DNA from: Smithella sp. SCADC
GTDB lineage: Bacteria; Desulfobacterota; Syntrophia; Syntrophales; Smithellaceae
DNA: 32,584 nt
NCBI GenBank assembly: GCA_000747625.2
Contig: JQDQ01000073.1
Location: 1-32,584 of the forward strand
Direction of reading: 5' to 3'
The translations under genes and the position numbers were made by a program. How positions within the stretch are numbered: the stretch's first letter is position 1; each line of letters opens with the position of its first letter. Shown here one piece after another: positions 6,599 through 26,451 of the stretch. The notes beneath the pieces are model-generated. The model was not told the DNA's origin and made no database searches. It saw only the letters and a program-made list of their open reading frames with translations.

Positions 6599-6772
6599 TG
6601 TCAGCTTAAAGCTATCCTGAACCATCTTAGAATTTATAACCTCCATCATCAATTTAGACATTACAAAATTGTCCCTTATCTATTTTTAAACGACTTCTTT
6701 GTTGCGCTTTATTGATTCTCCTCAAGAAGCATCTTCACAGAATAATCAATATAATTAGCACATTATACATGT

Positions 6773-6788
6773 TGGCATTTATCTTGCC
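6773..6788 (+). promoter_or_regulatory. Sigma-54 (-24/-12) promoter of amtB1
   Basis: TGGCAT-TTATC-TTGCC matches the sigma-54 consensus TGGCAC-N5-TTGCW, with the invariant GG and GC correctly spaced. It lies 44 bases before the amtB1 start. It is strongly consistent with nitrogen control of amtB-glnK. I found no TGT-N10-ACA NifA site in the upstream 170 bases, so the activator could be NifA or an NtrC-type protein. Confidence 0.8.
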
Positions 6789-6831: not shown

Positions 6832-8064
6832 ATGAATTCGGGAGATACAGCGTGGGTTTTGATGTCCAGCGCTCTGGTCTTATTAATGACCATACCGGGA
6901 TTGGCATTTTTCTATGGAGGATTGGTTCGACGCAAGAACGTTCTGTCCATTCTGATGCAGTGCTTTATTATCGTTTGTGTCATTTCTCTGCAGTGGATGT
7001 TGATCGGTTATTCTTTGGCGTTCGGTCCTGATTTCCATGGCATCATCGGTAAACTGGATTGGATAGGACTTGCAGGAGTAGGAGCAACACCGAATCCCGA
7101 TTACGCCAAGACTATTCCTCATTCTGTCTTTATGATTTTTCAGGCGATGTTTGCTATTATCACACCAGCCTTGATTATCGGCGCTTACGCGGAGCGGGTA
7201 AAGTTTTCCGCATTTCTGGTTTTCACCTTATTGTGGACAACATTTGTCTATGATCCGCTGGCGCATTGGGTCTGGGGTGTGGGTGGTTGGATGAGGACAC
7301 TGGGCGCACTGGATTTCGCGGGTGGAATAGTTGTGCATGTGAGCTCGGGAATTTCGGCTCTGGTGCTGGCTCTATTGCTGGGCAAGAGAGTTGGTTATAA
7401 TCACCGGCCGATTCGTCCTCACAACTTGCCTTTTACAGTTTTAGGCGCGGCTCTTTTGTGGTTCGGCTGGTTTGGATTTAACGCGGGTAGCGCACTGGCT
7501 GCCGACGGTCTGGCCGCCAACGCATTTATCACTACGCATATTGCTACCGCGGCTGCCGGTCTTACCTGGACGTTGGTGGAATGGTGGCACAATGGAAGCC
7601 CGACAATCCTGGGTGCTGCAACCGGAGCTGTGGCCGGATTGGTTGCCGTTACTCCCGCCTGCGGTTTTGTCAATCCGATGAATGCCATGTTTATCGGCAT
7701 GATCGTCGCGGTGATTTGCTATCTCGCGGTGGCGATAATTAAAGGCAAACTTGGCTATGACGACTCTCTGGATGCTTTCGGCGTGCATGGTGTGGGAGGA
7801 GCTGTCGGCACAATAGCCACAGGGTTTTTCGCGGAAAAAGCCATTAATGCCGCGGGAACAGACGGCCTGCTTTTCGGCAACGCGCATCAGCTTTATGTTC
7901 AATCTTTATCGCTTTTGGTTGCGGTTTCTTTCGCTGTAATTATGACCTTCATCATCTTCAAGATAGTGGATGCGATTATAGGCATGAGGGTTGAAGAGAA
8001 AAATGAAATCGTCGGCCTGGATTTAACGCAACAAAGCGAAGCCGCTTACACCGTGATCGAATAG
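6832..8064 (+). CDS. amtB: Ammonium transporter AmtB (copy 1)
   Basis: Inner-membrane ammonium channel of 410 residues with about eleven hydrophobic segments. AFFYGGLVRRKNVLS, HWVWGVGGWM, the first pore His in GGIVVHVSSG and the second in DAFGVHGVGG are as expected. WFGWFGFNAGSAL and the C-terminal hinge GMRVEEKNEIVGLDLTQQSE, the GlnK-docking tail, are also present. I chose ATG 6832 because AAGGAG lies nine bases upstream; the ORF-track start at 6799 would add 11 residues. Unlike copy 2 it has no secretory leader. It is followed by glnK1 after 12 bases, the classical amtB-glnK pair. Confidence 0.96.
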   Translation: MNSGDTAWVLMSSALVLLMTIPGLAFFYGGLVRRKNVLSILMQCFIIVCVISLQWMLIGYSLAFGPDFHGIIGKLDWIGLAGVGATPNPDYAKTIPHSVFMIFQAMFAIITPALIIGAYAERVKFSAFLVFTLLWTTFVYDPLAHWVWGVGGWMRTLGALDFAGGIVVHVSSGISALVLALLLGKRVGYNHRPIRPHNLPFTVLGAALLWFGWFGFNAGSALAADGLAANAFITTHIATAAAGLTWTLVEWWHNGSPTILGAATGAVAGLVAVTPACGFVNPMNAMFIGMIVAVICYLAVAIIKGKLGYDDSLDAFGVHGVGGAVGTIATGFFAEKAINAAGTDGLLFGNAHQLYVQSLSLLVAVSFAVIMTFIIFKIVDAIIGMRVEEKNEIVGLDLTQQSEAAYTVIE

Positions 8065-8076: not shown

Positions 8077-8418
8077 ATGAAACTAGTAATTGCCATTATT
8101 CAGCCGCATAAACTGGAGGCGGTGAAAAGAGAGCTGGAGGCCGTGAATGTAAATTTGATGACTGTCAGCAATGTTCTGGGACAGGGCAGACAAAAGGGGC
8201 TGACGGAAATTTATCGTGGAGCAAAAGAAGCCGGTGGCCTGCTCAATAAAGTCAGACTCGATATTGCCATCAATCAAGACTTTGTTGAGTCAACTATTAA
8301 AGCTATCACAAAAGGCGCTCATACCGGTGATGTCGGCGACGGTAAAATATTTGTTGTTGATCTTGCCGAATGCGTGCGCATCAGCAGCGCTGAGCGTGGC
8401 GAAAAAGCCATCGGATGA
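8077..8418 (+). CDS. glnK: PII signalling protein GlnK (copy 1), lacks Tyr51
   Basis: PII trimer protein of 113 residues that should block AmtB1 when nitrogen is plentiful. MKLVIAIIQPHKLEAVKREL, GQGRQKGLTEIYRGA and [20 protein letters not shown] carry the ATP/2-oxoglutarate-binding elements, including Gln39 and the GDGKIF loop. Counting from Met1, Tyr46 is present but position 51, the Tyr uridylylated in enteric PII, is Glu (YRGAKEAGG). Classical GlnD regulation is therefore unlikely. GAGG inside the last codons serves the decayed ORF that follows. Confidence 0.95.
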   Translation: MKLVIAIIQPHKLEAVKRELEAVNVNLMTVSNVLGQGRQKGLTEIYRGAKEAGGLLNKVRLDIAINQDFVESTIKAITKGAHTGDVGDGKIFVVDLAECVRISSAERGEKAIG

Positions 8419-8427
8419 GGTCATCTT

Positions 8428-8490
8428 ATGGATAATGATAAATTAAATGCTTCAGAAAATAAATTGCAGCGGTTTTTTTATGTAAGGGGT
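8428..8490 (+). pseudogene. Decayed remnant of a small NifA-type HTH gene
   Basis: The first 20 codons (MDNDKLNASENKLQRFFYVR) align without gaps to the start of the intact 73-residue HTH protein at 25331 (MDSNTLNSREKVLERCVYDC). The two have the same position, 9 bases after a glnK stop, with the same TGAGGT-atctt-ATG start context. Downstream of this point the similarity disappears. The remaining 95 codons of the listed ORF (to 8775) look like random AT-rich translation and contain no helix-turn-helix. I read this as a lost sibling of the 25331 gene, its DNA-binding part deleted or mutated beyond recognition. Confidence 0.6.
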
Positions 8491-8970
8491 TTGAAATATT
8501 TCCACTACACACTGTATAGTTTAAAGAGTTTATCGCAGCAAACGAAAGAAATTTTACGTACGTTAAGCCTCTTCTGGTGCCGGATAAAATCTACAGAGTG
8601 TATCCACACTAAGATTCTAAACGACTTTCCGGAGACTATCCTCACATTTTTGGGACAGCCAAACCTTGCCTGGTGTCATTATACGCTTTCGCCTGCCTGC
8701 GCATCAACGAAATACGGCATTCAAAAAACAAAAATTACTGACACTGGAATTAATAATAAAAAATTTTGTATTTAGTCACCGGTTACTTTATGTACTACAA
8801 TTCTGTACGGTTTTTCAATTATTCATAACGAAACAGTTCTTTAATCAGTGATGGTTCATAGGCTTTTATCATGATTACATCTTTAATTTTCATATCTTAT
8901 AATAGCAATCATCAATGGCATGAATATTGATGTTATGAAATATTTATAGTAATATGCGGCATAAGATTGA
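8491..8970. other. Gap before nifA, no gene recognised
   Basis: About 480 AT-rich bases. The open frame continuing from the remnant at 8428 has no recognisable protein character. A perfect small inverted repeat AGTGT-ATCC-ACACT occurs near 8600. A GTAC-TACAATTCT-GTAC repeat lies near 8790 and could be an operator. A poor -24/-12-like site near nifA is listed separately. Confidence 0.5.
8916..8931 (+). promoter_or_regulatory. Weak sigma-54-like site upstream of nifA
   Basis: TGGCAT-GAATA-TTGAT has the -24 box and spacing of a sigma-54 promoter, but GA instead of the invariant GC at -12. The putative nifH promoter shows the same deviation. It is 40-55 bases upstream of the nifA start. In AT-rich DNA this may be chance. 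Confidence 0.25.
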
Positions 8971-8985
8971 ATGGAGCATTTCGTT

Positions 8986-10542
8986 ATGACGTCTGACAAT
9001 GAAAGTGACAGGGTATCGCGGGAAATAAACGAGCTTTCCCTGCTTTTTGAGATAAGCAAGAAATTGAGCGAAAGCCTTGACCTTAAGGCGGCCCTGAAGT
9101 TTGTCCTGAAGAGTATGGCTGAAAACACGGAAATGCCCCGCGGCGCCCTGACGATATTGAACCGCAGCAGCGGGGAAATTATCATTGAAGAAGCCTATGG
9201 ACTTCTGCCTGAGGAACAGGCCAAAGGGAAATACCTTATAGGTGAAGGCATTACCGGCAAGGTGATTGATACGGGCGAGACAATCATTGTGCCCAGTATT
9301 TTCGATAGCCCCTTGTTTCTGGACAGGACCGGATCCAGAGAAAAATTAAATAAACGTGATATTGCGTTTATCTGTGTCCCTATAAAAATAGGCAATGAAG
9401 TAATCGGGACCATCTCTGTTGATCGTCTTGTGACCGGAGGCACATCCTTTAAAGAAGATGTCCGGCTGCTCACGATCATTGCTTCCACAATATCGCAGGC
9501 TGTTCGTCTGCGTCAATTGGCCCAGGAAGAACTCGACAAGATCAAAGAAGAAAACATCCGTCTGCATGATGAACTGAAGATTCGGTACGGTCCCAAAACC
9601 ATCATCGGCACGTCAAATATCATGCAGAACATCTATGGGTTGATTGAAACGGTCTGCCGCACAAATGCCACGGTTTTGATCCTGGGTGAAAGCGGCGTCG
9701 GCAAGGAACGCGTTGCCCATGCGATCCATTACAATTCGAGTTATGCCAGCGGTCCTTACATCATCGTCAACTGTGCGGCGCTGCCGGAGTCCCTGATCGA
9801 AAGCGAGCTTTTCGGGCATGAAAAGGGCGCTTTCACCGGAGCCACCGGGTTTCGCAAGGGACGTTTTGAACTCGCTAACAACGGCACCATCTTTCTTGAC
9901 GAAATAGGCGACATCCCTCCAGCCGTTCAGACAAAATTACTGCGCGTTCTTCAAGAGAGGATGTTCGAGCGCATCGGCGGCAATATGAGCATAAAGGTGA
10001 ACATCCGGATTATCGCCGCAACAAACAGGGATCTGGAGGCGCTCATACGGGAAGGAAAGTTCAGGGAAGATCTCTATTACAGGCTGAACATCTTCCCCAT
10101 TGTTGTTCCGCCCCTGCGGGAGCGAAGGCCGGACATCATCCTGCTGGCCAATTATTTCATCGAGAAATACGCCCGGGAACTGGACAAGAAGATAGTGAGT
10201 ATCTCCGTCCCGGCAACAGACATGCTCATGCACTATCATTGGCCGGGAAATGTCCGGGAGCTGGAAAACTGTATCGAACGGGCCGTCATTCTCTGTACAG
10301 ACGGCGTCATCAAAACCTATCATCTGCCGCCGAATCTGCAGAAGAGCGAGAACTCTCCCCTCATCGAATCGAAAGGCACCTTGCCGGATATGTTGATCTC
10401 CCTGGAAAAAGAGATGATTGCCAGCGCCTTGAAACGCTGCCGCGGTAACGTGGCCAAAGCAGCACGAATCCTGGGATTGACAGAAAGAATCATGGGTCTC
10501 CGAGTGGCAAAATTCGGGATCGATCCGAAGAAAATGAAATAG
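8986..10542 (+). CDS. nifA: NifA-type sigma-54-dependent activator (GAF, AAA+, HTH)
   Basis: Enhancer-binding activator of the nif genes. Domain order: an N-terminal GAF domain (about residues 25-180), a linker helix (EELDKIKEENIRLHDELK), a sigma-54 AAA+ domain and a C-terminal Fis-type HTH. The AAA+ domain has Walker A GESGVGKE, the sigma-54 contact loop GAFTGA, Walker B IFLDEIGD and WPGNVRELEN. The HTH is RGNVAKAARILGLTERIMGL. The ORF track starts at ATG 8971. I prefer the in-frame ATG 8986, which has GGAG nine bases upstream; 8971 has none. The Cys-x4-Cys linker motif of oxygen-sensitive NifAs is absent. No nifL is present, so the GAF domain or a PII protein probably provides nitrogen control. 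Nitrogenase genes follow directly, which supports the NifA call. Confidence 0.93.
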   Translation: MTSDNESDRVSREINELSLLFEISKKLSESLDLKAALKFVLKSMAENTEMPRGALTILNRSSGEIIIEEAYGLLPEEQAKGKYLIGEGITGKVIDTGETIIVPSIFDSPLFLDRTGSREKLNKRDIAFICVPIKIGNEVIGTISVDRLVTGGTSFKEDVRLLTIIASTISQAVRLRQLAQEELDKIKEENIRLHDELKIRYGPKTIIGTSNIMQNIYGLIETVCRTNATVLILGESGVGKERVAHAIHYNSSYASGPYIIVNCAALPESLIESELFGHEKGAFTGATGFRKGRFELANNGTIFLDEIGDIPPAVQTKLLRVLQERMFERIGGNMSIKVNIRIIAATNRDLEALIREGKFREDLYYRLNIFPIVVPPLRERRPDIILLANYFIEKYARELDKKIVSISVPATDMLMHYHWPGNVRELENCIERAVILCTDGVIKTYHLPPNLQKSENSPLIESKGTLPDMLISLEKEMIASALKRCRGNVAKAARILGLTERIMGLRVAKFGIDPKKMK

Positions 10543-10681
10543 TTTTTCCTGAGAAATTCTACTCGTGACACTTCCTACAATTCCGAAGGATAATTTTAAA
10601 ATTACTACCGCTGCGTCGTTTTTTCCTTTGTCTTTACAAGTCTTACAAAACTTCAATTCAGAAAAAATTATTTCTTATGTT

Positions 10682-10692
10682 GTGATTATCAC
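10682..10692. promoter_or_regulatory. Palindrome upstream of the nifH promoter
   Basis: GTGATTATCAC is a perfect 11-base palindrome about 50 bases upstream of the -24 box, within TGTTGTGATTATCACGGCACA. It is one base short of a TGT-N10-ACA NifA site (TGT-TGTGATTATC-ACG). It may be the activator site or a binding site for another regulator. Identity not established. Confidence 0.35.
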
Positions 10693-10740
10693 GGCACATT
10701 AAGAATGGTGACATCTGGAAAATAAACGTTCTTCATGTTC

Positions 10741-11625
<885 letters not shown>

Positions 11626-11647
11626 CAGGATGAAGGAGGGAAATAAG

Positions 11648-12001
11648 ATGTTGATGATCAAAGCCATTATACGGCCGGAAAAAGTAGATGTTGTTTTGGA
11701 ACAGCTCATGTCGGAAGGATTTCCGTCAGTGACCAAGATGAATGTTTCGGGGCGAGGCAAGCAAAGAGGAATCAAGATCGGTGACATCACTTATGATGAA
11801 TTACCAAAAGAACTCTTAATGCTGGTCGTTCCCGATGCGGATAAGGAACTGGTGATCAATCTAATCATGAGCGCCGCGAAGTCCGGCACACAGGGGGCAT
11901 TTGGCGACGGCAAGATCTTTGTTTCCCAGGTGGAAGAAGTTTACACGGTCAGCTCCGGAATCAAGGAAACCAATACCGGAACCGAGGAGGTTAAATCATG
12001 A
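11648..12001 (+). CDS. nifI1: Nitrogenase-regulating PII-like protein NifI1
   Basis: NifI1 acts with NifI2 to inhibit NifDK when ammonium appears and releases it when 2-oxoglutarate is high. This is known from methanogens. MLMIKAIIRPEKVDVVLEQL and the C-terminal GDGKIFVSQVEEVYTV are PII-like, and the T-loop GRGKQRGIKIGDITYDELPK is the short NifI1 form without Tyr51. I chose ATG 11648, eight bases after GGAGG, over the longer ORF start at 11603. The stop overlaps the nifI2 start (ATGA), so translation is coupled. Confidence 0.95.
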   Translation: MLMIKAIIRPEKVDVVLEQLMSEGFPSVTKMNVSGRGKQRGIKIGDITYDELPKELLMLVVPDADKELVINLIMSAAKSGTQGAFGDGKIFVSQVEEVYTVSSGIKETNTGTEEVKS

Positions 12002-12378
12002 AAGAGGTCATGGCCGTAATCCGCATGAATAAAATTAATCAGACGAAAAAGGCGCTGATTGCCGCCGGCATTTCTTCCATGCACGCCCGTGATTGTATGG
12101 GGCGCGGCAAGGGGCTGGTGGATATTCAACTGCTGAAGGGAGCGGAACTTGGGTACGAAGAAGCCATCTCTCAACTGGGAAATTCGCAAAGGCTGATCCC
12201 GAAAAGAATGATTTCCGTCGTTGTGCCGGACGCTCTTACGGATAAGACCGTCTCGGTCATCATTGCCGCGAACCAGACGGGGAAATCCGGCGACGGCAAG
12301 ATATTTGTAATGCCTGTACTGGATGCCGTTCGCGTCCGGACGGGTGAGTCGGGAAACGACGCACTCGATGAAGCATAA
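11998..12378 (+). CDS. nifI2: Nitrogenase-regulating PII-like protein NifI2
   Basis: Partner of NifI1, 126 residues. MKEVMAVIRMNKINQTKKAL is the diagnostic NifI2 opening. The T-loop is longer and different from GlnB (GRGKGLVDIQLLKGAELGYE), and the C-terminus GKSGDGKIFVMPVLDAVRVRTGE has the PII nucleotide loop. Translation is coupled to nifI1 through an ATGA overlap. Its location between nifH and nifD is the usual one for post-translational switch-off of nitrogenase in anaerobic diazotrophs. Confidence 0.95.
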   Translation: MKEVMAVIRMNKINQTKKALIAAGISSMHARDCMGRGKGLVDIQLLKGAELGYEEAISQLGNSQRLIPKRMISVVVPDALTDKTVSVIIAANQTGKSGDGKIFVMPVLDAVRVRTGESGNDALDEA

Positions 12379-12391
12379 GAAGGAGATAGAC

Positions 12392-14044
12392 ATGCCGACA
12401 AAAAATAATACAGCAGTGGATGAAGCAGCCTTGGCTAATGAAGTCAAAGAACTCATTCTCAAGAAATATCCGGCAAAGGAGGCTCGCAAGCGGGCCAAGC
12501 AAATTATAGTGAACAAGGTTGAAGGTGATCAGGTTCCGGAAATTATGGCTAATACGCGCACGATTCCGGGAATCCTCACCATGCGGGGTTGCGCCTACGC
12601 CGGTTGCAAGGGCGTTGTCCTGGGGCCGACGCGCGACATTTTGCAGATTACTCACGGGCCGATCGGTTGCGGATTTTACACTTGGGGAACCAGGCGGAAC
12701 CAGACAATGCCCAAAACACCGGAGAGCGCCAATTTCATGACCTATGCCATGTCCACGGATATGCAGGAAGAAGAAATCATCTTCGGCGGAGAAAAGAAAC
12801 TCAAGAAAGCCATTGAAGAAGCAATTGATTTATTCCATCCCAAAGCCATCAGCATTTTTTCCACCTGCCCGGTAGGGCTTATCGGCGATGATGTCCATGC
12901 CGTCGCCCGCGAGATGGAAGAAAAGTATCCGGAGGTCAACATTTTCGGTTTCAGTTGCGAGGGATATAAAGGTGTCAGCCAGTCGGCAGGCCACCATATC
13001 GCCAACAACAAACTCTTTACCGATGTGGTCGGACAGAGCGAAATGCAAAAAGAAGGAAAGTACCGGTTCAATATTCTCGGTGAATACAACATCGGGGGAG
13101 ACGCCTTTGAGATCGAACGAATTATTGATCTCTGCGGCATGACCCGGCATTCCACTTTCAGCGGCAACTCGGAATATGACGAATTTGCCAGCGCCCATAC
13201 AGTTGATTTGAACGTCGTCATGTGCCACCGCTCCATTAACTATCTGGCCGAGATGATGGAAAAAAAGTACGGAATTCCCTGGTTTAAGATCAGTTTTATC
13301 GGCGCGGGAGCTACCGCGAAGTCGCTGCGCAAAATTGCGGCCTACTTCGGCGCTCCCGAGCTAATGGAGAGAGTTGAAAAAGTCATTGCCGAAGAAATTT
13401 ATCATGTGGAAGCAGTGCGTCAGGAAGTCCGTGCGCGCTGTGAAGGTAAAACAGCCATGCTCTTTGTCGGCGGCTCCAGGGCGCACCACTATCAGGAGCT
13501 GTTTACCGAGATCGGCATGAAGACCTTATCAGCAGGGTATGAATTTGCTCACCGCGACGACTATGAAGGGCGCAAGGTGATCCCTAATATCGTTGTGGAC
13601 GCCGATTCACGCAATATTGAAGAATTGACGGTGGAGGCCGATCCGGCACGGTACCGGCCCCGCAAAACGGAGGAAGAATTGGCGCAATTAACTAAACGAG
13701 AAGGCATCGGTTTTAACGATTATGTGGGCATGATGTCCGAAATGAAGAAAGGCGATCTGATCATCGACGACCTAAATCATCATGAAGCAGAGGTTCTGAT
13801 GGAAAAATATAAACCGGATATTTTTTGCGCCGGCGTCAAGGAAAAGTATGTGATCCAAAAAGGAGGAATACCGCTCAAACAACTGCACAGTTACGACTAC
13901 AGCGGTCCCTACGCCGGATTCCGCGGCGCGATCAACTTTTACCGGGAGATCGACCGGATGGTTAATTCCAACGTCTTTCGCTTCATTAAAGCTCCCTGGC
14001 AGAAGAACCCGGAGCTGACGGGAAGCTACGCCTGCAACAGGTAA
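12392..14044 (+). CDS. nifD: Nitrogenase molybdenum-iron protein alpha chain NifD
   Basis: Alpha subunit carrying FeMo-cofactor, 550 residues from ATG 12392, which has AAGGAGA just upstream. The ORF-track start at 12323 lies inside nifI2 and is rejected. P-cluster cysteines are in GCAYAGCKG (Cys67), THGPIGCGFY (Cys93) and FSTCPVGLIGDD. The FeMo-cofactor Cys is in VVMCHRSINY (about residue 278) and the His in QLHSYDYSGPY (about 499). The GHHIAN segment that gives the homologue of Av His195 is present. Residues about 405-460 (EELTVEADPARYRPRKTEEE and onward) form the insertion seen in clostridial and other anaerobe NifD proteins. All metal ligands are present, so an active Mo-nitrogenase is expected. 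Confidence 0.98.
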   Translation: MPTKNNTAVDEAALANEVKELILKKYPAKEARKRAKQIIVNKVEGDQVPEIMANTRTIPGILTMRGCAYAGCKGVVLGPTRDILQITHGPIGCGFYTWGTRRNQTMPKTPESANFMTYAMSTDMQEEEIIFGGEKKLKKAIEEAIDLFHPKAISIFSTCPVGLIGDDVHAVAREMEEKYPEVNIFGFSCEGYKGVSQSAGHHIANNKLFTDVVGQSEMQKEGKYRFNILGEYNIGGDAFEIERIIDLCGMTRHSTFSGNSEYDEFASAHTVDLNVVMCHRSINYLAEMMEKKYGIPWFKISFIGAGATAKSLRKIAAYFGAPELMERVEKVIAEEIYHVEAVRQEVRARCEGKTAMLFVGGSRAHHYQELFTEIGMKTLSAGYEFAHRDDYEGRKVIPNIVVDADSRNIEELTVEADPARYRPRKTEEELAQLTKREGIGFNDYVGMMSEMKKGDLIIDDLNHHEAEVLMEKYKPDIFCAGVKEKYVIQKGGIPLKQLHSYDYSGPYAGFRGAINFYREIDRMVNSNVFRFIKAPWQKNPELTGSYACNR

Positions 14045-14069
14045 AATGAACAATTAAAGGAGAAACATC

Positions 14070-15446
14070 ATGCTACTTCGACATACACCCGAGACATTAG
14101 CCGACCGATCTGCCCTGACGGTCAATCCGGCCAAGACTTGTCAGCCCGTGGGAGCCATGTACGCAGCGCTGGGCATTCATAATTGTCTGCCGCACAGCCA
14201 CGGGGCTCAGGGCTGCTGCGCCTATCATCGGAGCGCGCTGACCAGACATTATAAAGACCCGATTATGGCTACGACCAGTTCCTTTACGGAAGGGGCGTCC
14301 GTTTTCGGCGGACAGGCCAACCTGCTGGAGGCAATTAATAATATTTTTACGATTTACGGCCCTGATATTGTAGCCGTTCATACGACTTGTCTGTCCGAAG
14401 TCATCGGTGACGACCTCGGACAGATTATCAACAAGGCTCTGGCGGATGGAAAGATTCCCAAAGGCAAACGGGTTATCCACACCAACACTCCGAGCTTTAA
14501 GGGATCGCATGTGACTGGTTTTGCCAACATGACCCAGAGCATGGTCCATTATCTTGCCGAAAACACAGGAAAGGGGACAGGGCAGATCAATATTATTCCC
14601 GGATTTGTCGAGCCGTCGGATATGGCCGAGATAAAAAGAATCTCATCCCTGATGGGAGTAAAAAGTATCCTTTTCCCCGATACATCTGAGGTCGTTAACG
14701 GCCCTCTGGACGGACGTTTTCACATGTATCCCAAAGGCGGTGCAACGGTAGACCAGATCCGGAGCGCCGGAGACAGCGCTTTCACCGTCTCCCTGGGCAG
14801 CAATGCATCTCTGCCGGCGGCAAAGCTTTTGGATACGAAATGCGGCATCCGCTTCAAGGATATGGAATTACCGATCGGCATTTCGGCAACGGATGCCTTT
14901 GTTGATGCGCTCAGGAAAGCTGCCGGCGTGAGTGTCCCCGACAGTATTATGGTGGAACGCGGACAAGTCGTTGACGTTTTGACGGACAATCATCAGTATT
15001 TTTACGGGAAAAAGGTTGCCCTTGTCGGAGATCCCGATCAATTAGTTTCGCTGACGCAGTTTCTCACCGATATGGATATGAAGATTCTTTATGTGGTGAC
15101 CGGGACTCCGGCAGGAGCAAAATTCGAGGAAAGCATTCGTGGCTTTACCGGACCTGACACGATTATCAAGCATGGCCTGGGAGCTGATTTGTTTTATTTT
15201 CACCAGTTGGTGAAAAACAACAGGCCGGATCTGATATTTGGCAACACTTATGCCAAATATATAGCCCGCGATGAAGATATTCCCCTCATCCGGATCGGCT
15301 TCCCGATTTATGACCGGGTCGGCCACCAGTATTTTCCGGTAGTGGGTTATCGCGGCGCTATGCGTATGATGGAAAAGATTCTGAATGCTTTGCTGGACCG
15401 CCAGGACCGCGATGCACCGGAACAAAATTTTGAATTGATCATGTAA
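14070..15446 (+). CDS. nifK: Nitrogenase molybdenum-iron protein beta chain NifK
   Basis: Beta subunit, 458 residues. P-cluster ligands are Cys24 in KTCQPVGAMYA, Cys49 in GAQGCCAYHR and the Cys in HTTCLSEVIGDD. Also typical are NTPSFKGSHVTGF, PGFVEPSDM, GNTYAKYIA and IRIGFPIYDRVGHQ. It lacks the roughly 50-residue N-terminal extension of Azotobacter-type NifK, like the short clostridial form. That fits the insertion-bearing NifD and the nifI genes. It starts at ATG 14070 after AAAGGAGAA. Confidence 0.98.
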   Translation: MLLRHTPETLADRSALTVNPAKTCQPVGAMYAALGIHNCLPHSHGAQGCCAYHRSALTRHYKDPIMATTSSFTEGASVFGGQANLLEAINNIFTIYGPDIVAVHTTCLSEVIGDDLGQIINKALADGKIPKGKRVIHTNTPSFKGSHVTGFANMTQSMVHYLAENTGKGTGQINIIPGFVEPSDMAEIKRISSLMGVKSILFPDTSEVVNGPLDGRFHMYPKGGATVDQIRSAGDSAFTVSLGSNASLPAAKLLDTKCGIRFKDMELPIGISATDAFVDALRKAAGVSVPDSIMVERGQVVDVLTDNHQYFYGKKVALVGDPDQLVSLTQFLTDMDMKILYVVTGTPAGAKFEESIRGFTGPDTIIKHGLGADLFYFHQLVKNNRPDLIFGNTYAKYIARDEDIPLIRIGFPIYDRVGHQYFPVVGYRGAMRMMEKILNALLDRQDRDAPEQNFELIM

Positions 15447-15457
15447 AGGAAAGAACG

Positions 15458-16858
15458 ATGATTGAGATTCTCGACGCTAGAAAAGATCAGATTTTTGAAA
15501 AAGGCGCGCAAGATACCTTCGAGATGACTTGCGAAAAGGTCAGCGTCGCCGGTTCGGTAAGCCAGCGGGCCTGCGTTTTCTGCGGGTCTAGAGTTGTTCT
15601 CTATCCGATCGCCGACGCTCTGCATTTGATCCACGGCCCGGTAGGCTGCGCCGCTTATACCTGGGACATCCGGGGATCACTATCCTCGGGACCGGAACTG
15701 CACCGGTTGAGTTTCTCCACCGATTTGCGCGAAAACGAGGTCATCTACGGCGGCGAGAAAAAACTTTATGCGGCGTTAACGGAACTCATCGAAACGTATA
15801 AACCGAAGGCAGCTTTTGTTTATGCCACTTGTATTATCGGCCTTATCGGCGACGATATTCAGGCTGTCTGTAAGAAAGTGGCCGCCGAGCAGGGGATTGA
15901 CGTAATTCCGGTTCACTCCGAAGGCTTCCGGGGAACAAAAAAAGACGGTTATAAAGCGGCCTGTGAGGCTTTATATCGTTTGATCGGACAGGACGACAAA
16001 GCGGTTGTGTCACAGCACAGCATCAATATTCTCGGGGATTTCAATCTGGCCGGAGAAACCTGGATCATCAAGGAATACTACAAAAGGATGGGTGTGGAAG
16101 TAGTATCGTGCATGACCGGCGACGGCAGGATTGATGAAATCCGGCGGGCGCATAAGGCGTCCATGAATGTCGTACAATGCTCCGGCTCAATGACGTATCT
16201 TGCCCAAATGATGCGGGAGACATTTGGCATACCCTTCGAACGTGTTTCCTATTTCGGCATTGAGGACACGGCTGAAGCCTTATATACAGTCGCCTGGCAC
16301 TTCCACGACGCGGCCATTTTGCAAAACACGGAGGAATTGGTGCGCGAAGAAGTAAACCGCATTTATCCCGAAGTGGAAAAATACCGGCAGGAGTTGACCG
16401 GAAGAAAGGCCGCCATTTATGTGGGCGGATCGTTTAAGGCTTTTTCGCTGGTCAAAGCTCTGCGCCATCTGGGGATTGCGACTGCTATTGTCGGCTCTCA
16501 GACCGGCAACAAGGAAGACTACGAATATCTGGAAGAGATCTGCGACCCCGGAACCATTATCGTTGATGATACGAATCCGCTGGAACTCTCCCGCTTCATG
16601 GCTGAGAAGAACGTGGATTTGCTCATCGGCGGCGTGAAAGAACGTCCCATTGCCTATAAAATGGGGGTTGCCTTTTGCGACCACAACCACGAACGCAAAG
16701 AGGCGCTGGCCGGGTTTGCGGGGATGATCAACTTTTGCCGGGAAGTTTATGCGTCGGTGACAAGCCCGGTGTGGCAATTCTCACCGGCTAAGAATCTGCG
16801 GACAAGAAAGGAGGGAACGGAAGATGCAAGCGAATTTTGTCAAGCTGCCCACAGTTAA
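15458..16858 (+). CDS. nifE: FeMo-cofactor scaffold protein NifE
   Basis: NifE forms the NifEN scaffold on which the NifB product matures into FeMo-cofactor; it is a NifD paralogue. RACVFCGSRVVLYPIADA, HGPVGCAAYTWDIRGS, ATCIIGLIGDD, LGDFNLAGE and VQCSGSMTYLAQMM are characteristic, and the cluster cysteines are kept. The C-terminus reads through the ribosome-binding site of nifN, giving a 35-base overlap. 466 residues, normal length. It is in the operon 11 bases after nifK. Confidence 0.97.
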   Translation: MIEILDARKDQIFEKGAQDTFEMTCEKVSVAGSVSQRACVFCGSRVVLYPIADALHLIHGPVGCAAYTWDIRGSLSSGPELHRLSFSTDLRENEVIYGGEKKLYAALTELIETYKPKAAFVYATCIIGLIGDDIQAVCKKVAAEQGIDVIPVHSEGFRGTKKDGYKAACEALYRLIGQDDKAVVSQHSINILGDFNLAGETWIIKEYYKRMGVEVVSCMTGDGRIDEIRRAHKASMNVVQCSGSMTYLAQMMRETFGIPFERVSYFGIEDTAEALYTVAWHFHDAAILQNTEELVREEVNRIYPEVEKYRQELTGRKAAIYVGGSFKAFSLVKALRHLGIATAIVGSQTGNKEDYEYLEEICDPGTIIVDDTNPLELSRFMAEKNVDLLIGGVKERPIAYKMGVAFCDHNHERKEALAGFAGMINFCREVYASVTSPVWQFSPAKNLRTRKEGTEDASEFCQAAHS

Positions 16859-18209
16859 AAAAACCGGGCCGGCCTTTGTTTCCACACGCAACGCGTGCAA
16901 ACTTTGCGCGCCTTTGGGTGCAAGTCTTGTTTTCCGCGGTATCGAAGGTTGTGTTCCCCTTATTCACGGTTCGCAAGGTTGCGCAACTTATATCCGCCGT
17001 TACGTCATCAGTCATTTCAAGGAGCCGATAGATATTGCTTCTTCCAATTTCAGCGAAGCAACGGCCATCTTCGGCGGCGCGGCTAATTTAAAAATTGCTT
17101 TGGATAATCTGATTCGCCAATATAAGCCTTCCGCCATCGGCATTGCCTCTACCTGTCTTTCGGAAACCATCGGCGATGATGTCCAGGGTTATCTCGAAGA
17201 ATACCGGAAAGTCCATGTGGGTGTAGATATCCCGGCCCTGATTTATGCCTCGACCCCCAGTTACCGGGGAACGCATATGGATGGTTATCATGAAGCAGTC
17301 AAAGCAACAGTTGTTGCCCTGGCCTGCGGCGGTCCACGCAGCAACAGTTTAAATATCGTTCCCGGATTTTTGTCGGCGGCGGACTTGCGCCATCTTCAGG
17401 AGATTATAGCTGACTTTCAGTTGCCGTGCACCATGCTGCCCGATTATTCGGAAACACTCGACGGCGAATCCTGGTCCGATTACCAGAAACTCTCTCCCGG
17501 CGGAACGCCGGTATCAGCGATCCGTGCCATGGGATGTGCTGCGGCAACCATTGAGTTGGGCCGCTCTCTGGCCGGGGAAGAAACAGCTGCTTCCTGTCTA
17601 ACAGAGGCCTTTGGCGTGAAGAGGGTGACGCTGGGAATTCCCATCGGCATCCGGGAGACGGATCTGTTTTTCAGCGCAGTCCAGGAAATAGCAGGCTGCG
17701 AGCTGCCGCAAAAGTATGCCAAGCAAAGAGGAAGATTGGTGGATGCTTATATCGATGGACACAAAACCATCTCCGGGAAGCGCGCCGTGATCTACGGGGA
17801 AGCAGATTTTGTCGCCTCCATGGCCTCCTTCCTGGATGAAATCGGCATTGTGCCGTCGCTTTGCGCCACGGGCGCCCCGACCAAAAAGTTTCAGGAAATC
17901 GTTTCCTCCTTATTGTCCGCGGGACACAAGGATATCATCATCCGGGAAGATGCTGATTTTGAAGACATGCTCGATATTTGCAGCAAGATCGGTGTGGATA
18001 TTATTATCGGCAACTCCAAAGGCTATTATTTGGCCAAAAATTTGAACCTTCCGCTCGTGCGCGCCGGTTTTCCGGTTCATGACCGCATTGGCGGACAACG
18101 CATTTTACATGTGGGATACGAGGGAACGCAGCAGCTTTTCGATCGGATCGTGAATGCTCTGATAGAGTATAAACAAATTAACTCGCCGGTCGGTTACAGT
18201 TATATATAG
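16824..18209 (+). CDS. nifN: FeMo-cofactor scaffold protein NifN
   Basis: Partner of NifE and paralogue of NifK, 461 residues. TRNACKLCAPLGASLVFRGI, HGSQGCATYIRRYVISHFKEP, STCLSETIGDD, STPSYRGTHMDGY, PGFLSAADLRHL and VRAGFPVHDRIGGQR appear in the expected order. It begins within the last codons of nifE, with AAGGAGG nine bases before the ATG, so NifE and NifN are likely made in balanced amounts. nifB follows after 10 bases. Confidence 0.97.
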   Translation: MQANFVKLPTVKKTGPAFVSTRNACKLCAPLGASLVFRGIEGCVPLIHGSQGCATYIRRYVISHFKEPIDIASSNFSEATAIFGGAANLKIALDNLIRQYKPSAIGIASTCLSETIGDDVQGYLEEYRKVHVGVDIPALIYASTPSYRGTHMDGYHEAVKATVVALACGGPRSNSLNIVPGFLSAADLRHLQEIIADFQLPCTMLPDYSETLDGESWSDYQKLSPGGTPVSAIRAMGCAAATIELGRSLAGEETAASCLTEAFGVKRVTLGIPIGIRETDLFFSAVQEIAGCELPQKYAKQRGRLVDAYIDGHKTISGKRAVIYGEADFVASMASFLDEIGIVPSLCATGAPTKKFQEIVSSLLSAGHKDIIIREDADFEDMLDICSKIGVDIIIGNSKGYYLAKNLNLPLVRAGFPVHDRIGGQRILHVGYEGTQQLFDRIVNALIEYKQINSPVGYSYI

Positions 18210-18219
18210 GAGAGAAAAA

Positions 18220-19479
18220 ATGGATACAAATAATCATCCCTGTTTCAGCGAAGGCGCCAGACACCGCACCGGACGGATTCATCTGCCCGTGGCGCCGAAT
18301 TGCAATATGCAGTGCAACTACTGTAATCGGGACTTTGAATGCTTGAACGAATCCCGGCCCGGCGTGTCGAGCGCCATCCTGCTGCCCAGGCAGGCGGCGG
18401 ATTATCTCGACGAGGTTCTGGACAGGATCAAAAATATAGCCGTGGTGGGAATAGCAGGTCCCGGCGATCCCTTCGCCAATCCGGCCCAGACCTTGGAGAC
18501 ACTTGGGCTGGTCAGGGAAAGACATCCGGAAATAATGCTGTGCGTGGCGACCAATGGTTTGGCGCTTGCCGGCTACGTGGATGAACTGGCGGATCTCCAA
18601 GTCAGCCATGTCACCGTAACGGTCAATGCGATTGACCCGGCAATTGCCCAAAAAATATACGCCTGGGCCAGATTGCCCGGCCATGTCTATCGGGGCGCCG
18701 ATGCCGCTGGGATAATAATCGAAAATCAGCAAAAAGCGATACGGCTGCTCAAGGCAAAAGGCCTTACCGTTAAGATCAATACGGTGGTTATTCCCGGAAT
18801 AAACGATCATCATGTTGTGGAAATTGCAAAAACCATGAAGGAGTTGAAAGCGGATATTTTCAACGCCATCCCCATGTATCATGTGGCCGGCACTCCCTTT
18901 GCGGGTATTGCCCCGCTGCCGGAGGACAAGATCGCCACACTTCGCAAAGCAGCGGGCTCCTACCTTCCCCAAATGAACCATTGCAGCCGCTGCCGCGCCG
19001 ATGCGGCAGGCCTGATCGGTGAAAAACAAAATCAGGAGATCGTGGATCTTCTGAAGAAGGCTTCCTTGCCCGGAAAAGACAAAGCCAGACCATATGTAGC
19101 CGTAGCCAGCATGGAGGGCATCTTTGTGAATCAGCACTTAGGTGAATCCGCAGGCCTCTGGATATACGGTTTGGAAAACGGGAAAGCCGTTCTGCAAGAG
19201 CGCCGGAACACACCGGCTGCAGGCGGAGGCCAGGAACGCTGGGAAGCAATGGCCCTTCTGCTTCAAGACTGCAATACAATTCTCGCCAGCGGTATCGGTC
19301 CCAGCCCTCTGGCCATTCTTGAACAAAGAGGCTTTCAAATCTTGGTTATGGACGGTCTGGCCAAAGAGGGAGTGGAAGCAATCCTTACGGGAAAAGCTAT
19401 CCCCAAAATACTTCTGCGTACGGCAGGTCATTGCGGCATTGGCAAGCAATGCAGCGGGAATGGCATGGGGTGCGGATAA
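18220..19479 (+). CDS. nifB: NifB radical SAM enzyme with C-terminal NifX-like domain
   Basis: NifB makes the NifB-cofactor, the carbide-containing iron-sulfur core of FeMo-cofactor. The radical SAM motif is CNMQCNYC (Cys28, 32, 35), preceded by GRIHLPVAPN and followed by NRDFEC. GIAGPGDPFANP, TVTVNAID, KINTVVIPGIND and MYHVAGTPFAG follow. The two further cluster cysteines are in HCSRCRADAAGLIGE. From about residue 290 a dinitrogenase iron-molybdenum cofactor (NifX/NafY) domain is fused (VAVASMEGIFVNQHLGES). The end is cysteine- and glycine-rich (HCGIGKQCSGNGMGCG). No separate nifX gene exists in the window, so the fused domain probably takes that role. Length 419 residues, typical of the two-domain form. 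Confidence 0.97.
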   Translation: MDTNNHPCFSEGARHRTGRIHLPVAPNCNMQCNYCNRDFECLNESRPGVSSAILLPRQAADYLDEVLDRIKNIAVVGIAGPGDPFANPAQTLETLGLVRERHPEIMLCVATNGLALAGYVDELADLQVSHVTVTVNAIDPAIAQKIYAWARLPGHVYRGADAAGIIIENQQKAIRLLKAKGLTVKINTVVIPGINDHHVVEIAKTMKELKADIFNAIPMYHVAGTPFAGIAPLPEDKIATLRKAAGSYLPQMNHCSRCRADAAGLIGEKQNQEIVDLLKKASLPGKDKARPYVAVASMEGIFVNQHLGESAGLWIYGLENGKAVLQERRNTPAAGGGQERWEAMALLLQDCNTILASGIGPSPLAILEQRGFQILVMDGLAKEGVEAILTGKAIPKILLRTAGHCGIGKQCSGNGMGCG

Positions 19480-19489
19480 TCAGAAATAA

Positions 19490-19717
19490 AAAGACTCCCT
19501 GCAGTTGCTTCAGTACATGGAACGGGAGCTTTCCGACCGGGGTTTGACGGATGTCATCGTTTCGAGCACCGGTTGCCTTAAAGTTTGCGACCGGGGACCG
19601 GCCATGGTGATCTACCCGGAAAACTGGTGGTACGGTAAGGTCGAGAATGAATCAGTGATTGACGAAATCATCGATGCCCTGGAAGACGGCAAAACGGCGG
19701 AAAAATATATCTTATAG
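19490..19717 (+). pseudogene. N-terminally truncated [2Fe-2S] ferredoxin of the nif-associated type
   Basis: The open part reads KDSLQLLQYMERELSDRGLT, then SSTGCLKVCDRGPAMVIYPE and NWWYGKVENESVIDEIIDAL. This matches the thioredoxin-fold [2Fe-2S] ferredoxins often found next to nifB. From family knowledge the intact protein starts about 25-30 residues earlier with a segment supplying two of the four cluster cysteines. Here a stop (TAA at 19487-19489) and the nifB end directly precede the conserved core, so only GCLKVC remains. The ORF-track start TTG 19505 has no good ribosome-binding site. Without the first two cysteines it cannot bind a normal cluster. Probably a deletion relic rather than a working electron donor. 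Confidence 0.7.
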
Positions 19718-19987
19718 AAAGATGAATGCAGAGTTGTTTCCGCACTTGATTTCATGAACAGGCGGAAGCTGAGGGAAGACGTTAAACGGTTAAGGGATGA
19801 AATGACTTTCCCGGTTATTTACGTTACCCATGACATTCAAGAGGCATTCTCTCTGGCCAGCGAAATATTGCCTGTTGCCGGGGGGAAAATCGATAAAGGC
19901 TGGTTGCAAAGATCCATTTCTTCCGCGCCATCAACCGGCGCACCTGCCAAAGCGGCGCGTGCGACACGGCTGGCGCTGGCTTTATAA
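19718..19987 (+). pseudogene. C-terminal fragment of an ABC transporter ATPase, probably ModC
   Basis: In the same frame as the ferredoxin relic and directly after its stop, the sequence reads DECRVVSALDFMNRRKLRED and then FPVIYVTHDIQEAFSLASEI. This is the Walker B/D-loop (SALD) and H-loop (THD) of an ABC ATPase. The Walker A and signature motif are absent, so the protein cannot work. The end (WLQRSISSAPSTGAPAKAAR) looks frameshifted. ModC, the molybdate importer ATPase, is the likeliest source because mod genes often neighbour nif genes and the segment is ModC-like, but other importers of the family are possible. Confidence 0.65.
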
Positions 19988-20004
19988 TTTTATGGGTTAA
20001 AACT

Positions 20005-20481
20005 ATGAAGAATATTCGCATCAGGAAAGGAGACCCCGGAGATATCGAGGCGATGGTAACTTTTCTTCATCATCTTTTTGCCCTGGAAGAAGACTTTGCC
20101 ATCGATGCTGATAAAAATAGGGCAGGCCTGCAACTGCTGCTTGCGGACCAGCGTGTCAGGACAATTTTTGTTGCCGAAGCGGCGGGCATGGTTTTGGGCA
20201 TGGTTACAGCCCAGATCGTCGTCTCGACATCCAGCGGCGGATACTCGATTTTACTGGAAGACATGTATGTCGATGCCGGATTCCGGCGGAAGGGCATCGG
20301 AACAAAGCTTTTGGCACAGGTGCTTGTCTGGGGTTCCGCGCAGGGAGCGGGTCGCGTTCAACTCGTTGCCGACGTCACGAATATCGGGGCATTGATGTTT
20401 TACCGGCAGGCAGGCCTGCTGACGAGCCGGATGACCGCGCTCTACGGAACCCTGGACGCCATCAACAAAAAAATAACATGA
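20005..20481 (+). CDS. GNAT family N-acetyltransferase
   Basis: 158-residue single-domain GNAT. The opening IRIRKGDPGDIEAMVTFLHH is standard. ILLEDMYVDAGFRRKGIGTK contains the acetyl-CoA pyrophosphate-binding RRKGIG loop, and NIGALMFYRQAGL is the C-terminal motif B region. Substrate unknown. The stop overlaps the start of the homocitrate-synthase-like gene (ATGA), so it is translated with it as part of the nif operon tail. Similar GNATs appear near nif genes in some anaerobes, but I cannot assign a nitrogen-fixation role. Confidence 0.85.
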   Translation: MKNIRIRKGDPGDIEAMVTFLHHLFALEEDFAIDADKNRAGLQLLLADQRVRTIFVAEAAGMVLGMVTAQIVVSTSSGGYSILLEDMYVDAGFRRKGIGTKLLAQVLVWGSAQGAGRVQLVADVTNIGALMFYRQAGLLTSRMTALYGTLDAINKKIT

Positions 20482-21668
20482 TCCGTATGGAAAGAGCTAT
20501 GCAGGGGAAAAGAATTTTCATATATGATACGACCTTGCGGGAGGGAGAACAATCCCCCGGCGCCGGCATGATGCCTGACGAAAAGCTTCGCCTGGCGCGG
20601 CAACTGGAGATACTGGGTGTGGACATTATTGAAGCGGGATTTCCTGTCTCCTCCGCGGGAGAATTCATCGCCGTTCGTCAGATAGCCCGGAAAATCAGGG
20701 GCTGTCAGATCGCCGCCATGACCAGAGCAAGAATCACCGACATCAACAGGACATGGGAAGCCATCCGGGAAGCGGCAGATCCCCGCATCCATATTATTCT
20801 TCCTGCTTCCGATATTCTGCTTCAATATCAGTTAAAAAAAAGCCGGCAGGAAATAATGGAAATAACAAAAATGTCCGTAGCCCATGCCCGAACCTATACG
20901 GACGACATCGAGTTTTCGCCCATGGATGCGACAAGAACGGATAAGGATTTTCTGTGCAGGCTTCTGGAGGCGGCCATCGATGCGGGCGCAAAGACCGTTA
21001 ATATTGCCGATACGGTGGGTTATGCCATTCCTACTGAATTCGGCGAGTTGATCCGCTACGTATCAGCCAACGTCAAAAATATCGGAGATCATATCCTTTC
21101 CGTCCATTGTCACGACGACCTGGGCCTCGCTGTGGCCAATACACTGGCCGCCGTGGAACAGGGCGTAAGCCAGGTGAAATGCACCATCAACGGCATCGGT
21201 GAACGGGCAGGCAACGCCGCGCTGGAAGAAGTGGTCATGACCTTAAAGACAAGAAACGATCGCTTCGGTGTGCGGATGAGAATCAAAACGGAGCAGATAT
21301 ACAAGACATCTCAACTTCTGACGGAGATCACCGGGATTCCCGTTCAGCCCAACAAGGCTATAGTGGGCGCCAATGCTTTTGCCCATGAAGCGGGTATCCA
21401 TCAGGATGGATTACTCAAAGATACGCGAACCTATGAAATCATGACACCCCAATCCGCAGGCGCTCCGGAAAACCGGTTTATCTTGGGCAAGCATTCCGGC
21501 CGTCATGCTATCCGGAGTTATATTGAAAAAACTGGTTACATCGTTAACGAAAGCCAACTGGATGACATTACGACCCGGTTCAAGGGAATGGCTGATCACT
21601 GTAAAAATATATCTGATGCAGAGCTGGACGCCATTGTAAAAAAAGTAGTCACATTATGCTCATCGTGA
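20478..21668 (+). CDS. nifV: Homocitrate synthase-like protein (NifV position, LeuA-like, no regulatory domain)
   Basis: DRE-TIM metallolyase that condenses acetyl-CoA with a 2-oxo acid. In this context the product is most likely homocitrate, the organic ligand of FeMo-cofactor. Visible marks: [41 protein letters not shown], the metal-binding [13 protein letters not shown] and [28 protein letters not shown] and [10 protein letters not shown] follow. The body looks more like 2-isopropylmalate synthase than Azotobacter NifV, but the protein ends at 396 residues, just where the LeuA allosteric domain would begin. LREGEQ (Glu rather than the usual LeuA Asp) and [12 protein letters not shown] resemble homocitrate synthases. 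ATG 20478 overlaps the GNAT stop; Met8 at 20499 is an alternative start. Isopropylmalate or citramalate synthase cannot be excluded. Confidence 0.78.
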
Positions 21669-21678
21669 CGGCTCTAAA

Positions 21679-23124: not shown

Positions 23125-23431
23125 AGTGGAAGATGTGTGGTGGTCCCTGTCTTTGATGATTGCCGTCGAAGCATCGATATTCCTACATATCTGAAGGTTA
23201 AGACTTTATATTTGAACTATTTTGTCATTTATTTATCTGTTTTTATCATCCCCTGAGAACCGTAATTCAATTATTTTACTTTTCATCATAATCACTTACG
23301 ACCTTTTACCGGGCCAAATCCAGACAATGGCACGAAGTATGCCTTATCAAAAGACAATGATATTTAAGTTCGAGAAGGCCTTCCCGGATCAAAATATTTA
23401 CAGGTAAAATCTATTCTATTGGAGGTGTGCA
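23125..23431. other. Intergenic region before amtB2
   Basis: 307 AT-rich bases with no gene. The listed ORF at 23222-23407 has no protein-like character. The only clear signal is the -24/-12 promoter at 23328-23343. No TGT-N10-ACA site was found upstream of it by eye. Confidence 0.6.
23328..23343 (+). promoter_or_regulatory. Sigma-54 (-24/-12) promoter of the amtB2 operon
   Basis: TGGCAC-GAAGT-ATGCC has a perfect -24 box and the invariant GC at -12 with correct spacing. It lies 88 bases before the amtB2 start. Together with the amtB1 site it puts both ammonium-transporter units under apparent sigma-54 control. Confidence 0.75.
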
Positions 23432-24934: not shown

Positions 24935-24979
24935 GAACCATCGTCGTCAAGACCCAATTTCTAAAAAAGGAGAATGATT

Positions 24980-25321
24980 ATGAAACTTATTATAGCAATA
25001 GTACAACCGGAGAAACTGACAGATGTCAAGCAGGCGCTTTCCGAAGCGAAGGTGGGGAAAATGACCGTGTCCAATGTTATCGGCTGCGGGTCTCAAGGTG
25101 GATACACAGAATCATATCGAGGGGCATTTACCGACGTCAACCTTTTGGACAAGGTCCGCTTCGAAATTGTCGTGAACGACAATTTCGTCAAACCAACCGT
25201 GGACGCCATTATCAAAGGTGCCCGATCTGGAAAAATCGGAGATGGCAAAATCTTTGTTGTGCCCCTTGAGGAGTGCATTCGGGTGCGCACGGGCGAAACA
25301 GGGAACATTGCCGTTGGCTGA
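24980..25321 (+). CDS. glnK: PII signalling protein GlnK (copy 2), lacks Tyr51
   Basis: 113-residue PII protein, the presumed gate of AmtB2. [40 protein letters not shown] and [23 protein letters not shown] show the fold and nucleotide site. The T-loop is odd: Arg38 and Lys40 of the enteric protein are Ser and Gly, and position 51 is Thr, so Tyr uridylylation is excluded at that place. Of two in-frame ATGs I chose 24980, since AGGAG is seven bases away; 24974 would be too close to it. The end overlaps the GAGG start signal of the next gene. Confidence 0.94.
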
Positions 25322-25330
25322 GGTTATCTT

Positions 25331-25552
25331 ATGGATAGCAATACATTAAATAGCAGAGAGAAGGTGCTGGAACGTTGCGTTTATGACTGCGAAAAAACAG
25401 TCATCCGGCATGCATTGACTAGGACAAGAGGCAATCAAGCAGCAGCAGCCAGAATTTTAGGAACTACAAAACGCATTCTGGCATACAAGGTCCATAAATA
25501 CGGGATTGATTGTGAAGAATTCAAACATGGATGGAGTGTAAAGGAGAATTAA
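25331..25552 (+). CDS. Stand-alone NifA-type helix-turn-helix protein
   Basis: A 73-residue protein consisting almost only of a Fis/NifA-type DNA-binding domain: CEKTVIRHALTRTRGNQAAA then RILGTTKRILAYKVHKYGID. Hand alignment with the C-terminus of the NifA in this window (LEKEMIASALKRCRGN... to GIDPKKMK) gives 25 identities over 46 positions without gaps. There is no AAA+ or sensor domain, so it cannot activate sigma-54. It could repress, compete with NifA at its sites, or act as a Fis-like architectural factor. GAGG inside the glnK2 stop region precedes the ATG by seven bases, so it is translated with glnK2. A decayed homologue sits at the equivalent place after glnK1. I know no named family member; the function is inferred. 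Confidence 0.85.
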   Translation: MDSNTLNSREKVLERCVYDCEKTVIRHALTRTRGNQAAAARILGTTKRILAYKVHKYGIDCEEFKHGWSVKEN

Positions 25553-25557: not shown

Positions 25558-26451
25558 ATGAAAGACTATATGAAGAAAATGATTACCGCAGTTTTGCTTT
25601 TATTGATTATTGCCACATTGCCCGTAACTATTTGGGCAGAAGAACAGAAGCCCGCCGTGCCGGAACAAAAAACTGTTGAGCAAAAGCAAGAAGAGGATAA
25701 AGTAACCGGCGAGGTCGCCGCAAGTATTCTCAGCGCTTATATTTGGCGCGGTCAGGAACTGAGTCGCGACAGCGTGGTGATCCAACCCTCCGCAACGGTG
25801 AGCTATCGGGGATTTACGGCCAACATCTGGGGCAATCTGGACACCGATCCCTACTCGGTTACGGACGGAGAATATTCATCCAACTATACGGAAACGGATG
25901 TGACCTTATCCTACACCCATAAATTCGGCATAGTTTCCGCCGGCGCCGGCTACATCTATTATGGTCTGGCGGCGGCAACTCCGGGCGGGCAGGATCTGCT
26001 GGATTCACAGGAAATATTTGTGACTTTGGGATTGGATACGATTTTAGCGCCGGCATTGACCGTTTACAAGGAAGTCGATCATTATCGTCAGTGGTATGCG
26101 ACACTGGGTGTATCCCATACCTTTCCCCTGCATGAAAAAGTCGGTCTGAAACTGGCGGCAACCGCAAGTTATCTGTTGTCTACCGATGAAACAACCTATC
26201 CCGAATTTGACGGTGATTCTCTGGCAACAACCGATAAGTTTAATAATTTGCACGATGGCTTGATTTCCGCTTCTCTGCCGATTGCCGTAACCGGTCATTT
26301 GACGATTACACCGACGGTAACCTATGTCTTCCCGCTGTCCGACGATGCGAAGTATGAGATGAGAGCGCGCGGTCTGCAGGGTGCGGCCAATCCATCCGAC
26401 AAAGATAGTGATTATATCTATGGCGGATTGACTTTAAGTTACACTTTCTAA
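25558..26451 (+). CDS. Putative outer-membrane beta-barrel protein of the amtB2 operon
   Basis: 297-residue secreted protein. A signal peptide (KKMITAVLLLLIIATLPVTI, cleavage near WAEE) is followed by a charged Glu/Gln/Lys-rich linker (EEQKPAVPEQKTVEQKQEED). Then come alternating beta-strand patterns such as LSAYIWRGQELSRDSVVIQP, YRGFTANIWGN, SAGAGYIYYG and LKLAATASYLL. The final strand YGGLTLSYTF ends in aromatic Phe, the outer-membrane insertion signal. It resembles barrel families of unknown function (TorF/Gcw_chp-like) but I cannot place it. ATG 25558 follows GGAG; Met at 25570 is possible. Being last in the amtB2 operon, it may be a nitrogen-regulated porin or surface protein; no substrate can be assigned. 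Confidence 0.75.
   Translation: MKDYMKKMITAVLLLLIIATLPVTIWAEEQKPAVPEQKTVEQKQEEDKVTGEVAASILSAYIWRGQELSRDSVVIQPSATVSYRGFTANIWGNLDTDPYSVTDGEYSSNYTETDVTLSYTHKFGIVSAGAGYIYYGLAAATPGGQDLLDSQEIFVTLGLDTILAPALTVYKEVDHYRQWYATLGVSHTFPLHEKVGLKLAATASYLLSTDETTYPEFDGDSLATTDKFNNLHDGLISASLPIAVTGHLTITPTVTYVFPLSDDAKYEMRARGLQGAANPSDKDSDYIYGGLTLSYTF

Follow-up and report, generated by a model that had tools for sequence, protein, structure and literature searches.

Likely loss by deletion of one of two small helix-turn-helix genes in the amtB-glnK operons of Smithella sp. SCADC

The contig of Smithella sp. SCADC analyzed here (the window, 32,584 nucleotides) carries two PII genes, glnK1 (8077..8418, plus strand; PF00543) and glnK2 (24980..25321, plus strand; PF00543, E 3.7e-29). 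Behind glnK2 lies HTH2, an intact gene for a 73-aa protein with a Fis-type helix-turn-helix (HTH), here called a mini-HTH (25331..25552, plus strand). The original prediction held that the first 20 codons after glnK1, to position 8490, are a decayed twin of this gene. The locus therefore raises the question of whether a second mini-HTH gene, HTH1, once followed glnK1 and, if so, how it was lost.

The sequence following glnK1 is TGAGGTCATCTTATGGATAATGATAAATTAAAT and that following glnK2 is TGAGGTTATCTTATGGATAGCAATACATTAAAT. The start context claimed for both sites can be read in both sequences, as TGAGGT-nATCTT-ATG-GATA. The ribosome-binding site that served the lost HTH1, TGAGGT (8416-8421), includes the glnK1 stop codon (8416-8418). 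Local DNA alignment of 8407-8448 with 25310-25351 showed 81% identity over 42 bp with a score of 44, compared to a maximum of 32 among 1000 dinucleotide shuffles, so that the match exceeds chance. It stands out because glnK1 and glnK2 themselves hardly align as DNA, sharing only a 25-bp match (score 30). The true orthologues match better still, with scores of 63 against the HTH1 of the relative G014 (8407-8471) and 76 against that of G007 (8407-8479). Homology to the intact HTH1 genes after glnK1 in G007, G014 and G009 delimits a plus-strand remnant consisting of the start codon and the first ~8-15 codons (8428..8471, or 8479 against G007). The remnant lies in the same place as these genes, after an orthologous glnK1, and has a homologous 5' end. 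The HTH core that a functional HTH1 would contain is absent, with no Pfam family found in the open reading frame (ORF) that starts at 8428 (8428-8775). From 8451 onward the window also matches the terminator found downstream of HTH1 in relatives, and ~8480-8501 matches the terminator only. By these alignments, the part assignable cleanly to HTH1 is about 8 codons, or up to ~17 when the shared repeat is counted; the predicted homology was upheld, but its proposed 20-codon extent was not.

We searched 60 genomes of relatives with the mini-HTH and GlnK1 as queries, and an intact mini-HTH gene of 65-74 codons was found directly behind the glnK1 orthologue in many of them: G007, G008, G014, G009, G004, G015 and G001 within the genus, and G024, G027, G030 and G039 beyond it. 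The GlnK1 of G007 is the closest to that of the window (90% identical). In G014 and G009, a mini-HTH gene follows both PII genes. Intact HTH1 genes at this site, together with the two copies in G014 and G009, indicate that one copy has been lost in the window, as had been proposed. TGAGGT-n-ATG is the general start context among the relatives, its ribosome-binding site sharing bases with the stop codon of glnK; it is therefore a signal for translational coupling and not peculiar to the two window sites.

What the relatives carry downstream of HTH1 points to the manner of the loss. What comes after the intact HTH1 in both G014 and G009 is the end of a lost Gcw_chp gene, Gcw1 (its last ~12 codons, ...YGG..L.YTF-stop), and after that a terminator hairpin (folding energy -27.2 kcal/mol, z -5.6 in G009; -18.9 kcal/mol, z -2.9 in G014). 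The window keeps just one arm of this hairpin: positions 8451..8501 on the plus strand correspond to the 3' arm and tail, with 95% identity over 43 nt to G014 and 88% over 51 nt to G009. Since the HTH1 part and the terminator part overlap in the window as an imperfect repeat, a deletion between the 5' end of HTH1 and the terminator arm is the simplest account. We estimate a probability of roughly 90% that 8428-8501 is a deletion scar. The site would ancestrally have held a four-gene unit, amtB1-glnK1-HTH1-Gcw1, from which Gcw1 would have been lost except for its last codons and the terminator, a state retained in G014 and G009. The lineage of the window would then have lost the rest of HTH1 through a deletion running from an imperfect repeat within that gene (roughly AAATAxATTGCAGCG) to the 3' arm of the terminator, with HTH2 kept intact behind glnK2. 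The order of these steps is read from the comparison of relatives, and the part played by the repeat is one that we infer; as a deletion, the scar is unremarkable. That the mini-HTH was dispensable at one of two loci suggests that the copies are probably partly redundant.

The original description of a decayed gene implied that HTH1 was pseudogenized gradually by point mutation, diverging past codon 20. A recognizable 5' end with intact start codon and ribosome-binding site would fit such a history, but the sequence beyond ~8480 is not diverged HTH but a terminator tail conserved at 88-95%, and the remaining stretch aligned with HTH DNA scores 19, a value reached in 213 of 500 shuffles and hence nothing above chance. 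We consider gradual decay extremely unlikely; in our reading, HTH1 was lost through a deletion whose joined ends lie in HTH1 and in the terminator left behind by the fourth gene. A collapse or misjoining of similar repeats, with the real genome retaining an intact HTH1, must also be weighed, given that the junction lies inside an imperfect repeat and that the metagenome assembly is a draft of 244 contigs with an estimated contamination of 8%. Such an artifact is very unlikely: both sides of the junction are collinear with G009 (glnK1, HTH1, terminator, nifA region), the junction is followed by a 106-bp stretch not found in the relatives (8502-8607), and genome-wide searches found no second HTH1 copy on other contigs.

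The ORF at 8428-8775 stays open for 115 codons behind a good ribosome-binding site and might be read as a new functional small protein in which the start of HTH1 is fused to downstream sequence. It has no Pfam family, however, none of the relatives examined carries it, and its 3' half (8608-8775) aligns to non-coding DNA upstream of nifA in G009 with indels of 1 and 2 bases that break the frame, which argues against coding. We regard this ORF as not a gene, and a functional fusion as almost certainly the wrong reading. The non-coding region upstream of nifA is annotated at 8608..8976 (no strand assigned), with 88% identity to G009 extending over 8608-8999 and a weak sigma54-like site at 8916. 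Among 40 relatives compared, no convincing match was found to the unplaced 106 bp (8502..8607, no strand assigned). G009 and G014 carry a cyclase-like gene (344-351 aa; PF00211 in G014) exactly at this site; the G009 gene, located between the terminator and the nifA region, is absent from the window.

The idea that amtB, glnK and the mini-HTH gene form an ancestral cassette was supported by their recurrence among relatives, but the unit has four genes rather than the three proposed, with a porin-like Gcw_chp gene last. In the window this gene is Gcw2 (25558..26451, plus strand), assigned as an outer-membrane/porin-like protein from its position after the mini-HTH in most relatives and from a match to Gcw_chp (PF09694; 22.0 bits, E 0.00018) that falls just under the curated cut-off of 24 bits. 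The arrangement amtB-glnK-HTH-Gcw recurs in other families of Syntrophales (f10, f14), and in G024 and G039 the mini-HTH follows glnK with no adjoining Gcw. Family f6 has the mini-HTH flanked by a GAF-AAA-HTH activator on one side and an archaeal-type glutamate synthase on the other. The predicted link to Amt and PII survives for PII and nitrogen assimilation but not as a strict link to Amt, since the second copy in G014 and G009 lies behind a PII gene that is preceded by a permease-PII fusion. The G014 locus (L062:5486-7369) and the matching G009 region encode a 627-aa amino-acid-permease-PII fusion, followed by a separate PII gene, the mini-HTH and Gcw. At two further loci, L077 (G014:C188) and L076 (G009:C203), a sigma54-activator-like gene precedes the mini-HTH, followed by Gcw in G014, with no glnK present.

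G007, which has no nif island at this locus, shows the gene order pdxS-pdxT-GNAT-amtB1-glnK1-HTH-Gcw-GATase. Both flanks are shared by the window, which carries nifA..nifV-amtB2-glnK2-HTH2 between them. Because these flanks are contiguous in G007, the mini-HTH copies bracket the nif island (8608-25309, with amtB2-glnK2-HTH2) as direct repeats, and gain or loss of the island by recombination between them is possible. The mini-HTH gene tree does not tell whether the window HTH2 groups with the HTH1 or the HTH2 copies.

Members of the mini-HTH family were found in Syntrophaceae/Smithella metagenome-assembled genomes. In a sample of 395 genomes from the phylum, short free-standing members occurred only in the order Syntrophales, and elsewhere the domain formed the C-termini of long activators. 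One 130-codon hit outside the order (G529) was rejected as a free-standing mini-HTH, being part of an activator that lies at the end of a contig. We found no report of the mini-HTH or of the amtB-glnK-HTH cassette in the open literature; the study of the Desulfovibrio sigma54 regulome (PMC4641369) was covered by term search.

The protein encoded by HTH2 matches HTH_8 (PF02954) over residues 19-57 with 36.6 bits (E 3.8e-9), above the curated cut-off of 22 bits. Its AlphaFold (AF2) model is confident and compact (mean pLDDT 86), and the closest folds are the DNA-binding domain of sigma54 activators and Fis; the Foldseek E-values are weak (best 0.08), as the small size of the domain would lead one to expect. 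The predicted fold superposes on the sigma54-activator DNA-binding domain 2m8g with an rmsd of 0.6 over 46 columns. The mini-HTH shares the HTH_8 fold family, but the domain constitutes the entire protein of about 65-75 aa instead of the end of an activator. Gammaproteobacterial Fis is likewise a free-standing HTH_8 protein, compared to which the mini-HTH is shorter, is located in a PII operon and falls far below the Fis equivalog cut-off (NF001659; 23.5 bits against 99). Fis was reportedly proposed by Morett and Bork in 1998 to derive from the DNA-binding domain of NtrC-type proteins, which would be a parallel case. Values of dN/dS were 0.05-0.27 in 11 of 12 computable pairs, with one exception at 0.57, and 0.15-0.27 for the window HTH2 against relatives; such low values between close pairs indicate that the mini-HTH is mostly under purifying selection. 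In several Syntrophales families, the ammonium-transport/PII operons thus include a tiny DNA-binding protein that is stably retained under selection.

The recognition helix of most mini-HTH members, TT[KR]R[IV][LI]xY[KR], equals the TTKR[IV][IVM]QY[KR] of GAF-AAA-HTH sigma54 activators of ~508-577 codons. Within this genome, the HTH_8 protein with a nearly identical helix is the activator on contig C177 (GTTKRIIQYK vs. GTTKRILAYK). Activators of the C177 type share a nitrogen-assimilation neighborhood with the mini-HTH in several genomes; unlike it, they possess a GAF sensor and an ATPase that contacts sigma54. NifA, which is encoded nearby in the window, was rejected as the parent: its HTH is 56% identical to the mini-HTH over 45 aa and overall identity is similar, but its recognition helix is LTERIMGLR. 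Against the NifA equivalog (TIGR01817; GAF, AAA, HTH), the mini-HTH reached 23.5 bits, compared to a cut-off of 528.85.

Upstream of amtB1 (ammonium transporter; 6832..8064, plus strand; PF00909, E 7.7e-131), we identified a predicted sigma54 -24/-12 promoter of amtB1-glnK1, TTGGCATTTATCTTGCC (6772..6788, plus strand), of the form TTGGCAY-N5-TTGC. Each of the 13 amtB1 upstream regions in the comparison contains this pattern. Further 5' lies the palindrome ACAAAATTGT (6663..6672, no strand assigned), a candidate enhancer (UAS) on the grounds of its spacing and of the enrichment of ACAAWWTTGT, 36 copies of which occur in the loci examined where 2.25 are expected. The palindrome precedes the -24 element by 79-80 bp in most relatives and by ~92 bp in other families; in the window the distance is 110 bp, a spacing 30 bp longer. 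With a flexible gap of 58-88 bp, the combined enhancer-promoter pattern was matched 31 times, in 28 of 154 Syntrophales genomes, and the reversed-pattern control gave no match. Nearly all of the 30 matched loci that were fetched lie immediately 5' of amtB, Gcw or Gcw-amtB. In this genome the palindrome also occurs just 5' of the activator gene (L154:4638), and other genomes have it just 5' of genes for an archaeal-type glutamate synthase. We conclude that ACAAWWTTGT is likely a nitrogen-assimilation enhancer of Syntrophales amtB and Gcw operons. Its occurrence in genomes with no cassette mini-HTH (e.g., G013, G018 and G025) fits the activator as the main binder, yet lends no support to binding by the mini-HTH. 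No such sigma54 promoter precedes the window amtB2, a point against the braking role considered below. No NifA site (TGT-N10-ACA) was found upstream of the window amtB1, nifA or nifH. A sigma54-like site, TGGCACGACTCTTGA, lies at 10741 upstream of nifH, with no classical NifA site close by.

How might the intact gene work? The mini-HTH could function as a stand-alone copy of the C177 activator's DNA-binding domain. From the shared recognition helix, the enhancer motif and the position in the operon, all of which can be read directly, we infer that the activator would bind the ACAAWWTTGT enhancers and that the mini-HTH would compete for the same sites, being unable to activate sigma54 because it has no ATPase. 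Since it is made from an operon under enhancer control, with its translation coupled to that of glnK, its competition would brake amtB-glnK expression by negative feedback. We advance this operon-encoded brake tentatively, at somewhat less than even odds. The broader notion of a Syntrophales-specific regulator family, in which a PII-coupled copy of the activator domain in the amtB-glnK operon reads the activator's enhancer and sets or brakes the sigma54 promoter, is a working proposal of similarly limited confidence. The mini-HTH and the enhancer-promoter module offer a specific, testable proposal for the tuning of ammonium uptake in syntrophic bacteria.

Somewhat less probable than the brake is a role that helps the sigma54 promoter, either as an architectural or helper protein similar to Fis or through mixed dimers with the activator. 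The fold matches Fis as well as activator DNA-binding domains, and conservation of the long helix preceding the HTH extends to members whose recognition helix is altered; the score far short of the Fis equivalog cut-off argues against it. Regulation of the downstream Gcw specifically, with the mini-HTH found behind glnK only through travelling with Gcw, would agree with the mini-HTH-Gcw pair lacking glnK in G014:C188 and with the presence of the same enhancer and promoter at Gcw operons that have no HTH. This is improbable, as the mini-HTH follows glnK with no adjoining Gcw in two genomes. Competition for DNA by the mini-HTH may still not be its sole role: most members show the activator-type helix TTKR[IV]xxY[KR], but not those of G004, G015 and G001, in which the gene is kept despite a changed helix, and these proteins are constrained but perhaps no longer DNA-binding. 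At the loci concerned (L066 in G004, L067 in G015 and L068 in G001), TTKR has been lost and the helices read IKESFLADK, INERALADK and IKESSLKEK, with a dN/dS of 0.16 between G004 and G015.
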